A stretch of 24,476 bases of DNA, from IMG/VR virus record IMGVR_UViG_3300048690_000109, positions 1 through 24,476 of that record, one strand, 5' to 3'. This DNA comes from a virus. Numbering within the stretch: the first letter of the stretch is position 1; each line of letters starts with the position of its first letter. Below the pieces are notes generated by a model. That model did not search any database. It was given only the letters and a program-made list of their open reading frames with translations, and had not been told where the DNA came from. Of this stretch, positions 1-8,035 are shown piece after piece. The position numbers and the translations under genes were made by a program.

Positions 1-128
1 AGCGTTGACTTATATAAGCGTTGACTTATATAAGCGTTGACTTATATAAGCGTTGACTTATATAAGCGTTGACTTATATAAGCGTTGACTTATATAAGCG
101 TTGACTTATATAAGCGTTGACTTATAGC
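1..128. repeat. Eight tandem 16-bp direct repeats (iteron-like array)
   Basis: The 16-bp unit AGCGTTGACTTATATA starts at 1, 17, 33, 49, 65, 81, 97 and 113. The copies are identical except that the last one ends in GC instead of TA. There are no spacers, so this is not a CRISPR array. It lies just upstream of a DnaA box and an AT-rich stretch, an arrangement typical of iteron-type replication origins. Because the array begins at base 1, its true length is unknown and the contig may simply have broken here. Confidence 0.9.
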
Positions 129-751: not shown

Positions 752-800
752 GATAATATATTGGTTTAAACAGTATATTATCGGGCTAATATTGGCCGAT
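752..800 (+). promoter_or_regulatory. Two-hairpin leader element, copy A
   Basis: Hairpin 1 pairs GATAATATA (752-760) with TATATTATC (774-782), extended by TTG/CAG around a GTTTAAA loop. Hairpin 2 pairs ATCGG (780-784) with CCGAT (796-800) around the near-palindrome CTAATATTGG. The two hairpins share bases 780-782, so they are partly exclusive. The ATG of the downstream gene follows 18 nt later, preceded by TTATC. Copies B and C repeat this layout. Confidence 0.65.
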
Positions 801-818
801 TTTGATAATGAGATTATC

Positions 819-1082
819 ATGCAAAAACTTTATACAAAAACTGTATTCATTAAATCCACTGACCAATATAATGAATTTGCGAAACTTAAAATCGGACAAT
901 GGGTTAGTGGATTATTCCTTGATAACAAATCGGTATTATATAGGGGTCAATTTATGGGTTTCGACAATAATGATAAACCGATTATTAATTTCCGAATTGA
1001 TAATGCAAAGCATAATCTAGATTGGAAAAACCAATTTATATCTAATAAATATCTTCGACAGTTTGCTAAAGTGAAAGCCTGA
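819..1082 (+). CDS. Small protein with GQWV motif, 87 aa (paralogue of the 1388 gene)
   Basis: The frame is open from a TTG at 792, but that codon lies inside the leader hairpin. The ATG at 819 sits at the same distance from the element as the starts of the other two elements' genes, so it is preferred (87 aa). The segment KIGQWVSGLFLDNKSVLYRG and the C-terminal LRQFAK match GQWV, DNK, Y-G and LRDYAK in the 73-aa protein at 1388-1609, so the two are diverged paralogues. No named family is recognised and the function is unknown. The protein is soluble and rich in Lys and Asn. Confidence 0.65.
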   Translation: MQKLYTKTVFIKSTDQYNEFAKLKIGQWVSGLFLDNKSVLYRGQFMGFDNNDKPIINFRIDNAKHNLDWKNQFISNKYLRQFAKVKA

Positions 1083-1093
1083 TAATGTCAGAT

Positions 1094-1140
1094 ATAATAC
1101 CTTAATAATATAGGGTATTATGTCGGATAATATTGTCCGA
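1094..1140 (+). promoter_or_regulatory. Two-hairpin leader element, copy B
   Basis: Hairpin 1 pairs ATAATACC (1094-1101) with GGTATTAT (1114-1121). Hairpin 2 is TCGGATAATATTGTCCGA (1123-1140), a 9-bp self-complementary stem with one G-T pair. Compared with copies A and C, the pair at one stem position is A-T here, C-G in A and T-A in C, so pairing is kept while the bases change. An ATG in an AATATCATG context follows 17 nt after the element. Confidence 0.65.
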
Positions 1141-1157
1141 AAATGAAAGTTAATATC

Positions 1158-1373
1158 ATGAAATTGATTTCCACTATTAATAAGTCAATCGGTTTTCAAG
1201 CTAAAGTTTATTATAATTCAGACTATAATGAATATGTCGTTAAATATTATGATGAAAACAAACGGATTATGTCAGATAATACATGGTATTATACTGATGA
1301 TAAAGAAGACGCAATTAACACGGCATATAAAGAAATAGAATACATGTCGAATAATAAAGTATTGGCAGATTAA
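1158..1373 (+). CDS. Small hypothetical protein, 71 aa
   Basis: There are in-frame ATGs at 1143 and 1158. I prefer 1158 because it lies 17 nt after the leader element, matching copies A and C, and has GAAAG 8 nt upstream. The product is a small charged protein (MKLISTINKSIGFQAKVYYNS...) with a central aromatic-rich stretch and a DDKEDAINTAYKEIEYM helix-like segment. The layout is beta-rich then alpha. I recognise no characterised family. It is followed within 15 bp by the 1388 gene, so the two are probably co-transcribed. Confidence 0.6.
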   Translation: MKLISTINKSIGFQAKVYYNSDYNEYVVKYYDENKRIMSDNTWYYTDDKEDAINTAYKEIEYMSNNKVLAD

Positions 1374-1387
1374 TCGGAGATAATCAA

Positions 1388-1609
1388 ATGAAATATATTC
1401 AAGCATTTAATATCTGGAATATACCAAATGAATTGATTAAGTATATTCAACCGGGACAATGGGTTTATGCGGGTGCAAAAGACAATAAAGGAATATATCA
1501 GGGGATTAAAAAATCAGGTATTATTGTAGTTGCTTGGCAAGGGAATATAAATAACCATAAAGATAAAAAGCAATATATTAAAACATTAAGGGATTATGCA
1601 AAATCATAA
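1388..1609 (+). CDS. Small protein with GQWV motif, 73 aa (paralogue of the 819 gene)
   Basis: A CGGAG Shine-Dalgarno sequence lies about 10 nt upstream of the ATG. The product has PGQWVYAG, DNKGIYQG and a C-terminal YIKTLRDYAKS. It aligns end to end with the second half of the 87-aa protein at 819-1082 (GQWV, DNK, Y[RQ]G, LR[QD][FY]AK). The two therefore look like a local gene duplication flanking the 71-aa gene. Unlike its paralogue it has no two-hairpin leader directly in front. Function is unknown. Confidence 0.65.
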   Translation: MKYIQAFNIWNIPNELIKYIQPGQWVYAGAKDNKGIYQGIKKSGIIVVAWQGNINNHKDKKQYIKTLRDYAKS

Positions 1610-1624
1610 TTAATAGTATTTTCT

Positions 1625-1677
1625 GATAATATCTTAGATTATATCTAGGGTATTATCGGGTTAATATTAACCGATAA
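1625..1677 (+). promoter_or_regulatory. Two-hairpin leader element, copy C
   Basis: Hairpin 1 pairs GATAATATC (1625-1633) with GGTATTATC (1649-1657), including one G-T pair. Hairpin 2 pairs TTATCGG (1653-1659) with CCGATAA (1671-1677) around the palindrome TTAATATTAA, with one bulged G (1660). The arms share 1653-1657, so only one hairpin can be complete at a time. The ATG at 1698 follows 20 nt later. This is the most stable copy of hairpin 2. Confidence 0.7.
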
Positions 1678-4777: not shown

Positions 4778-4810
4778 ATAATACCTTAATTATTATCTCA
4801 AGGTATTATG
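4778..4810 (-). promoter_or_regulatory. Intercistronic hairpin related to the early leader elements
   Basis: ATAATACCTT pairs with AAGGTATTAT around a 12-nt AT-rich loop. It lies in the gap between the 84-aa gene and phoH. The plus-strand arm ATATAATACCTTAAT is identical to the start of hairpin 1 in leader copy B (1092-1106). There is no T-run, so an RNA-processing site or attenuator is more likely than a terminator. Confidence 0.55.
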
Positions 4811-6935: not shown

Positions 6936-7022
6936 GTAAACGTGTATTCCGCAACTACGTTAAAAGTTCGGCTGCTCAATCGCCAACGGAAAGAGCATAA
7001 GGTTACAGTTGGATAAATTTAT

Positions 7023-7101
7023 TCCGTAAAACCCGAGCTAGGCGCATGGGCGTGACTGTTAATCACTGGTTAGATTGGTTCGAATCCAATGTACGGAGCC
7101 A
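7023..7101 (+). tRNA. tRNA-Asn (GTT)
   Basis: The acceptor TCCGTAA pairs with GTACGGA (last pair A-G mismatched), then G and an encoded CCA. The anticodon loop CTGTTAA gives GTT. The T-arm ATTGG-TTCGAAT-CCAAT is perfect. The D-arm CCCG/TGGG has a long 11-nt loop containing GG. The outermost anticodon-stem pair is C-T. Confidence 0.85.
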
Positions 7102-7104
7102 TTA

Positions 7105-7180
7105 CTGAGTGTAGCCTAGATAGTCAGGCACTTGATTTGGGGTCAAGATCACGGGTATGCGAGTTACTCCATTCAGACCA
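7105..7180 (+). tRNA. tRNA-Pro (TGG) with altered D- and T-loops
   Basis: The acceptor CTGAGTG/CATTCAG is followed by A and an encoded CCA, and the total of 76 nt is canonical. The D-arm is GCCT/AGGC. The anticodon stem CTTGA/TCAAG closes TTTGGGG, giving TGG with G37. The D-loop AGATAGTC lacks the usual GG, and the T-loop is TGCGAGT instead of TTCRANT. It starts 3 nt after tRNA-Asn. Confidence 0.8.
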
Positions 7181-7204: not shown

Positions 7205-7609
7205 ATGATAGATAAAAAGAAAGAGCAACTTGGAATGAATCCAAGTACAGCAAGCGGTAGACTAGTAAAAGATATTTTATGGTCTTTTATTGTAAAAAAT
7301 TGTCAAGATACTTGTTGCAAATGCGGTAATCAAATGACAAGAGAAACGTTTTCAATTGAACATTTAAAACCTTGGTTAGATAGTGATGATCCTGTTGGGT
7401 TGTATTTCAATCTAGACAATATCTCGTTTAGTCATCTATCTTGTAATATATCTGATGCTAGAAAACAAGAAGCTGTTTGTGGAACATACACCAGATATAA
7501 AAATCACTCGTGTCGCTGTGATCCGTGCAAATTAGCTGCGTCAGATTTCAAAGCAAAGTATTATACAAAAGAGTCCAGACAAAAACAATATGTTAGAACT
7601 GGAAACTAA
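7205..7609 (+). CDS. HNH endonuclease, 134 aa, inside the tRNA cluster
   Basis: A GAAGGA Shine-Dalgarno sequence precedes the ATG. The HNH domain has C37-x2-C40, then IEHLKPW (Glu52-His53), DNISFSHLSCN (Asn72, His77) and Cys80, which gives catalytic and zinc-binding positions. The C-terminal part, CGTYTRYKNHSCRCDPCKLA (92-111), is a second Cys-rich module of the GT-Y-CRC-C type seen in some phage proteins. The gene interrupts the run of tRNAs, between tRNA-Pro and tRNA-Tyr, as free-standing homing endonucleases often do. It probably nicks or cuts related phage DNA lacking the insert. Confidence 0.85.
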   Translation: MIDKKKEQLGMNPSTASGRLVKDILWSFIVKNCQDTCCKCGNQMTRETFSIEHLKPWLDSDDPVGLYFNLDNISFSHLSCNISDARKQEAVCGTYTRYKNHSCRCDPCKLAASDFKAKYYTKESRQKQYVRTGN

Positions 7610-7613
7610 TTTA

Positions 7614-7698
7614 GGATGAGTATCCCTTTAAAGAGGAGGTGTGGCCTGTAAAGCCGCTGTCATTGACTCGCTAGGAGCGTTACCTAGATCATCCACCA
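7614..7698 (+). tRNA. tRNA-Tyr (GTA), type II, with altered D- and T-loops
   Basis: The acceptor GGATGA pairs with TCATCC (seventh pair G-A), then A and an encoded CCA. The anticodon arm GTGGC-CTGTAAA-GCCGC gives GTA. The 13-nt variable arm TGTCATTGACTCG closely resembles that of bacterial tRNA-Tyr. The T-stem CTAGG/CCTAG is perfect, but its 7-nt loop is AGCGTTA rather than TTCGAAT, and the D-loop has no GG. It begins 4 nt after the HNH stop codon. Confidence 0.75.
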
Positions 7699-8035
7699 AA
7701 CATGACCTGAAATAACGGTCCGACAGGTGAAATGCCTGTACCTAACACCAAAGAACCGTTCGAGAGGTAGCTTCGGCTATTACGGGAAGTAGCAGGGGAT
7801 GCGCCCTACGCTATAAGTTAAAACGCATACCTTTATTTTAATAAAGGGTATAACTTACATTAAAGAACCTACCTTGGGTCCGAAGTCCCTTCGGTTTTAG
7901 GCGTCCCACGAATCTGTTGCGTGGTAACACGGAGTTTAGAAGCTTCGGGTGAGTATTGCCAAATGCTCATGCAAAGGATACAGCGTATTATCTGCGGTAG
8001 ATACGAAAAGGCTACTCGGGAATCGTAACCCGAAC
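7699..8035 (+). ncRNA. Candidate large structured RNA after tRNA-Tyr, about 335 nt
   Basis: Dense helices without an ORF. AACGGT (7714-7719) pairs with ACCGTT (7755-7760), enclosing ACAGG/CCTGT (7723-7739). TAGC-TTCG-GCTA is at 7768-7779. The long-range helix AGTAGC (7788-7793) with GCTACT (8011-8016) encloses TACGC (7807-7811) with GCGTA (7983-7987). TAAGTTA/TAACTTA (7814-7857) encloses CCTTTAT-TTTA-ATAAAGG. Local stems are CCGAA/TTCGG (7880-7894), CCACG/CGTGG (7906-7924), TGAG/CTCA (7950-7969) and TCGGG/CCCGA (8016-8033). Large phage RNAs such as GOLLD and ROOL also lie next to tRNAs, but I cannot assign this sequence to either from memory. It is not an evident group I intron, tmRNA or RNase P RNA. 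Confidence 0.6.

Follow-up and report, generated by a model that had tools for sequence, protein, structure and literature searches.

The early message of phage T7, about 7,000 nt long, is cut at five RNase III sites (PMC4858673), R0.3, R0.5, R1, R1.1 and R1.3, which lie between the early genes of one polycistronic message and have a long stem with U.G pairs and an irregularity on the 3' strand. At R0.5 the stop codon lies in the lower stem and the AUG is 18 nt from its end. In Escherichia coli, the distal box recognized by RNase III (UU/AG, that is, U.G then U-A) is at positions 10-11 from the cleavage centre (PMC5141509), and a 12-bp stem with a tetraloop suffices (PMC8708148). Other repeated elements precede phage genes. 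The SAS/ESAS repeats of cluster K mycobacteriophages (PMC3203893) are mostly in one orientation, stand before non-structural genes of unrelated families, partly with inverted repeats just upstream, and have a suggested role in translation initiation, although their function is unknown; SAS is a 13-bp GGGATAGGAGCCC sequence that overlaps the Shine-Dalgarno site 3-7 bp from the start. A 26-bp repeat before several gene starts of Citrobacter phage Mordin, for which no two-hairpin structure is described, has been likened to SAS (PMC4611695). HK022 put RNA has two adjacent hairpins in early phage RNA, acts on RNA polymerase near promoters and has no link to stop or start codons.

Here we describe a folded RNA element, carried by many freshwater and other environmental phages and unrelated to any catalogued RNA, that lies between the end of one gene and the start of the next. 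Its shape and spacing suggest a cutting site that would split a long phage message and leave a small protective hairpin on the front of the next one, in the manner of the T7 early-mRNA sites. Nevertheless, the element is distinct from those sites: model R3, which detects window elements A and C, found no match in T7, and the element has a clean 22-25-bp helix with a single bulged C, a covarying alternative partner strand and a conserved 14-nt hairpin exactly at the predicted new 5' end, whereas T7 is cut in an internal loop. The SAS 13-mer was absent from the aligned copies and the leaders read; in the present element the conserved part is structural, ends about 20 nt before the start and is tied to the upstream stop codon. 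The Mordin repeat differs in being a linear sequence repeat. No put sequence was compared, and antitermination activity was not examined. No Rfam 15 family matched the element in covariance-model searches.

A repeated element at gene junctions

The window, that is, the whole stretch of DNA analysed, is a linear viral contig of 24.5 kb. Its close relatives include Limnohabitans phage DC31 (76 kb, 78% identical over 1.8 kb that includes the elements) and several IMG/VR contigs of 12-77 kb. The phage has a T4-type terminase, a Mu-type portal and a capsid-E major capsid protein, and the elements lie in a block of small + strand genes that ends at GP88; a strong intrinsic terminator at 2635-2666 (14 bp, T-rich tail) may end this early operon. 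Likely tRNA-Asn, tRNA-Pro and tRNA-Tyr genes at 7020-7180 and about 7617-7705 were missed by ARAGORN and Rfam but are annotated in DC31, and are possibly degenerate. An ORF region at 7205-7609 is similar in DNA to HNH-endonuclease regions of Pseudomonas, Klebsiella and Salmonella phages and is unannotated in several of them.

The initial annotation had proposed three repeated two-hairpin elements with compensatory base changes before early genes, and this observation was confirmed, although the element proved larger than described. Covariance model R1, built from nine sequences that include copies A and C but not B, scored 82.3, 69.0 and 43.0 bits (E 5e-17, 5e-14 and 5e-8) at 1624-1679, 751-804 and 1092-1145. 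The + strand folded at -22.6, -20.9 and -24.0 kcal/mol (z -3.6, -3.9 and -4.3), whereas the minus strand was weaker (-13.9, -13.2 and -15.4) because many pairs are G.U.

Element A (740-797, +; R1 69.0 bits, R3 63.6 bits at 740-797, and two alignments) comprises an upstream strand at 740-749, hairpin 1 at 750-784 and hairpin 2 at 784-797. The TAA stop codon of the upstream ORF (582-743), at 741-743, lies inside the pairing strand, 9 nt before hairpin 1, and the element is followed by gene 1 (819-1082, 87 aa, weak match to PHROG 21585), whose ATG is 21 nt after hairpin 2. Element B (1080-1139, +) comprises the stop codon TGA at 1080-1082, hairpin 1 at 1091-1124 and hairpin 2, CGGATAATATTGTCCG, at 1124-1139. 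It precedes gene 2 (1158-1373, +, 71 aa from ATG 1158, PHROG 7884), which no element follows before gene 3 (1388-1609, +, 73 aa, PHROG 21585). Genes 1 and 3 are therefore likely paralogues, but only gene 1 has an element before it. Element C (1607-1672, +; R1 82.3 bits, R3 43.4 bits at 1613-1672) comprises the stop codon TAA at 1607-1609, the upstream strand at 1613-1622, hairpin 1 at 1623-1659 and hairpin 2 at 1659-1672, and precedes the GP88-family gene (1698-2474, +; PF17338, 2.6e-44). R1 also returned a hairpin-1-like stem without hairpin 2 at 4778-4809 on the minus strand, upstream of phoH (4752-3967, minus strand), which is a doubtful relative (20.2 bits, E 0.007).

In relatives the elements stand before the same genes, but not always: relative contig L006 has one before another gene and none before gene 1, and in L010 copy C precedes an inserted gene, so they are modular. 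The whole DC31 genome holds just three copies, in this one cluster. R1 further found distant copies in GP88-carrying phages (contigs L014-L020) with an entirely different hairpin-1 sequence but the same GGGCTAATATTGGCC. A scan for that 15-mer gave 66 contigs, of which about 40 have a stable hairpin 1 ending at it; relaxing the two central loop bases, with TTATC required upstream, gave at least 119 contigs and 66 distinct canonical elements in all, in IMG/VR contigs and in DC31; the family is larger than this collection. Whole-record searches showed one to three copies per contig, close together, and none in T7 or MW202701. Contigs with a T7-like primase-helicase, contigs with ArdA and DC31-like contigs all carry the element, indicating that unrelated phages share it. 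Among named phages, none other than DC31 was found by DNA similarity. Five matches to the gapped pattern in 84,980 bacterial and archaeal genomes, none with a proper hairpin 1, were judged to be chance, and a pattern with a free hairpin-2 third pair (GGGDYAATATTRHCC) gave essentially chance hits.

In 55 of 55 diverse copies, the stop codon of the upstream gene begins 9-18 nt before hairpin 1; in 27 it begins exactly 9 nt before, being the UAA or UAG within the upstream strand. The start codon follows hairpin 2 by 19-24 nt in 48 of the 53 copies with a called start. Downstream proteins fall into 26 unrelated clusters and upstream proteins into 21, indicating that the element is tied to gene junctions and not to particular genes. 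Copies precede genes as different as GP88, tiny membrane peptides, a DnaN-like protein (judged by eye) and an ArdA antirestriction protein (PF07275, 1e-23; L144:7904-8386 and L147:2373-2855 (minus)), the last of which fits early anti-defence expression.

A third strand and two exclusive folds

The structure differs in several respects from that first proposed. Hairpin 1 is longer than the GATAATAyC/GRTATTATC stem of the initial annotation, having 12-16 bp that include U.G pairs, and hairpin 2, GG-N-Y-A-(AUAU)-U-R-N'-CC, abuts it with no linker. A strand of about 10 nt just upstream of hairpin 1, consensus YUARNNUUAU, had been missed; it pairs with the 3' half of hairpin 2, UAANNUUGG, as proven by compensatory changes. 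Most copies, window copies A and C included, therefore fold as one 22-25-bp hairpin with a bulged base (the extended helix spans 21-26 bp across 56 copies), whereas B folds as two hairpins. RNAalifold, unprompted, chose the long helix, and the partition function gave it over 50% in 56 of 56 copies (median 0.99).

To test whether this pairing is maintained by selection, we examined covariation in an alignment of the 55 diverse copies, of which one clade (the L014 type) makes up a large share. The extended helix paired in 98.4% of cells, with 199 double-change cells against 56.6 in shuffles, and covariation was 0.582 against 0.221, with slid controls at most 0.127. The hairpin-2 loop base at column 55 and the upstream strand at column 5 paired as UA 30, AU 18, GC 4, CG 2 and UG 1, and when the loop NN changes (UA, UU, CU, UC, UG, CA) the upstream strand changes with it. 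Swapping upstream strands dropped pairing from 63/64 to a mean of 44.4 and a maximum of 53 in 2000 trials. Copies were collected by pattern and kept only if hairpin 1 had at least 10 bp ending at GGG, so pairing of the first 10 pairs is partly by construction; the loop-to-upstream-strand covariation, pairs 11-12, the 10-nt rule described below and the codon distances were not selected on. Divergence of the arms without compensation in homologous phages, which had been named in advance as the outcome that would overturn the proposal, did not occur, either across nine copies of the window lineage or across the 55 diverse copies.

Hairpin 2 is nevertheless conserved. GGC and GCC pair with each other only in hairpin 2, its third pair changes as CG, UA and AU in the window lineage (GC in DC31 copy B), and a pattern that left those bases free returned GGGC and GGCC in every real element. 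The two folds exclude each other. A simultaneous pseudoknot of the upstream strand with the hairpin-2 loop was rejected because no loop nucleotides remain to span the helix.

The interpretation in the initial annotation was thus supported only in part. A repeated, strand-specific element with compensatory changes before early genes, matching no described family, was supported, as was a possible role in processing, and two exclusive folds exist. However, the proposed switch between hairpin 1 and hairpin 2 through their overlapping arms was not supported as stated: both folds keep hairpin 1, and the competition is between hairpin 2 and the upstream strand, so the partial exclusivity does not rest merely on the shared C/G. 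This simple two-hairpin reading was replaced by the three-strand model, in which the exclusive fold is weak in copy B. Nothing suggests that the Shine-Dalgarno site is sequestered; inspection by eye across classes showed no conserved complementarity in either fold. Transcript 5' ends, the other point named as a test, were not examined.

A predicted RNase III-type processing site

We propose that the element is a phage intercistronic mRNA-processing site of the RNase III type with a built-in 5'-end hairpin (probability about 0.6). Our analysis establishes the covarying long helix with its single bulged C, formed by a strand at or just after the upstream stop codon, hairpin 1 and the 3' half of hairpin 2; the alternative use of the same 3' segment in the local hairpin 2; and a nearly invariant U.G pair exactly 10 nt 5' of the start of hairpin 2. 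What we infer from these features is that host RNase III docks on the long helix with the U.G in its distal-box pocket and cuts the 3' strand at the hairpin 1/hairpin 2 border, and that the downstream mRNA then starts with the first base of hairpin 2, whose 5' arm is free to displace the upstream strand. In this view the long helix is the substrate and hairpin 2 the product, which would account for both conserved folds. The next gene would be left with a blunt 5'-terminal hairpin about 20 nt before its start codon, which would protect it from 5'-end-dependent decay and give each early gene its own message. It is speculative, but a plausible addition, that a ribosome terminating on the stop codon covers the upstream strand and so gates cutting.

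Several measurements are consistent with this proposal. Hairpin 1 never has fewer than 12 bp, although 10-11 bp would have passed our filter, and with the extended helix it fulfils the stem-length requirement of E. coli/T7-type sites. With the cut placed at hairpin 2, position 10 is U.G in 50/55, and among hairpin-1 positions above its base only positions 4 and 10 are near-invariant. The distance from this G to hairpin 2 is exactly 10 nt in all 12 window-lineage copies listed, B and C types included, although their hairpins differ in length; in element A the pair is U761-G773. The predicted cuts are 783|784 in A, 1123|1124 in B and 1658|1659 in C. The same count of 10 nt 3' of the distal-box G gives 5887 for T7 R1.1, the reported cut (PMC8708148). 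It also gives 3138 for R1 and 890 for R0.3, in agreement with the mapped sites. After the cut, the upstream duplex (mean -5.6, 31% G.U) and hairpin 2 (-4.7) would be close in energy, so strand exchange is feasible. In the first 12 pairs of hairpin 1 in 40 copies we counted 99 U.G, 2 G.U and 0 A.C, a pattern that points to selection on the RNA of this strand; why the U is almost always on the 5' strand and the G on the 3' strand is unexplained, although T7 stems show mostly the same orientation.

Other observations fit less well. Cleavage was not assayed, and no 5'-end or expression data exist. Position 11 is U-A in 18 copies but C-G in 23, and because the cut site itself is assumed, these counts do not settle whether a distal box is present. 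The E. coli proximal-box consensus (CWUW/WAWG at positions 2-5) is matched as CWUW in only 10/55 and as CWWW in 30/55, with W at position 4 in 54/55; the consensus is known not to be strict (PMC5371410, PMC8708148), and this comparison likewise argues neither way. The predicted cut lies between paired bases 2 nt above the bulge and not inside an internal loop as in T7, and the G+10 rule cannot be applied to T7 R0.5 (C-G there, not U.G) and gives 6445/6451/6457 at R1.3. RNase III sites usually lack a conserved primary sequence, yet hairpin 2 and the upstream strand are strongly conserved, which could mean a dedicated binding protein. The rules are from E. coli, whereas the hosts are mostly unknown, and copy B does not favour the extended helix.

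A more elaborate possibility, which we regard as tentative and more likely wrong than right, is a new class of phage RNA device, a stop-codon-embedded strand-exchange processing site, in which RNase III cleavage of a 22-bp helix triggers refolding of the downstream end into a blunt protective 5' hairpin and the terminating ribosome on the upstream gene decides whether the site is formed and cut. The element is in any case a widespread, uncatalogued RNA family in environmental phages, independent of the genes it separates and supported by strong covariation. It gives a base-exact prediction, suggests how phages outside the T7 group divide early operons into separate, protected messages, and gives a handle for finding gene junctions in unannotated phage contigs.

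ALTERNATIVES

The other explanations all appear unlikely, to differing degrees. The least unlikely is a ribosome-gated RNA switch, in which a terminating ribosome covers the upstream strand so that hairpin 2 forms, whereas the long helix forms without upstream translation, the two states differing in how well the downstream gene is translated or in mRNA stability. Gating is attractive because the stop codon is inside or directly before the switching strand in 55/55 copies, at exactly the same offset in 27, because the two conserved folds are mutually exclusive, and because structure after a stop codon is reported to affect translational coupling (PMC12548453); it is compatible with processing rather than opposed to it. 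However, the long helix dominates at equilibrium, neither fold includes the Shine-Dalgarno region, copy B lacks a good alternative fold, and a switch does not explain the exact 10-nt U.G-to-hairpin-2 spacing or the 12-bp minimum. A translational operator, with hairpin 2 plus the U.G-marked stem bound by a phage or host protein that controls the downstream gene, is less likely still. Although hairpin 2 GGCUAANNUUGGCC and several pairs are nearly invariant and the distance to the start codon is nearly fixed, the two central loop bases change freely as long as the upstream strand changes with them, so they are not read as sequence, and the element ends about 20 nt before the start codon, outside the usual operator position. 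No partner gene common to all these phages was found, GP88 being absent from four carrier contigs, though these may be fragments.

Action at the level of transcription, as a put-like antiterminator, pause site or terminator, is improbable. The two abutting hairpins recall put RNA, and antitermination may be used nearby, but no U-run follows the hairpins, antitermination needs no fixed distance to stop and start codons, and the copies sit at internal gene junctions, not next to promoters. A promoter inside hairpin 1 (TGATAATAT, TATAAT) was rejected, since no -35 or -10 hexamer is shared between hairpin-1 classes and promoter-like sites were no more frequent than in shuffles. Least likely of all is a DNA-level inverted repeat (operator, origin or recombination site) or chance repeats in AT-rich DNA. 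Hairpin 2 of copy C is a perfect palindrome and an origin-like region lies upstream, but this reading is already contradicted by the wobble asymmetry, by the much worse folding of the minus strand and by covariation exceeding all shuffles; a DNA operator or a geminivirus-like TAATATT nick site was rejected on the wobble asymmetry and the free variation of the loop.

The origin-like region comprises eight 16-bp direct repeats (AGCGTTGACTTATATA) followed by a perfect DnaA-box sequence TTATCCACA (window 1-126 and 150-180), and relatives have iteron-like repeats and many TTATCCACAG at the same place, so that it looks like a replication origin beside the early operon. The leader of the early operon (window about 318-410; relative contigs L004 5470-5560, L006 3610-3710 and L008 3640-3740) has a GTAAAC..GTTTAC hairpin, then an rrn-boxA-like sequence (AGTTCTTTAACAATTG in L008 and L009), then a hairpin whose inner stem changes with compensation between relatives (TTATTAGT/ACTAATAA, TTATGTAT/ATACATAA, TAGTGTAT/ATACACTA), and is possibly an rrn-type (NusB/S10) antitermination leader in a phage.
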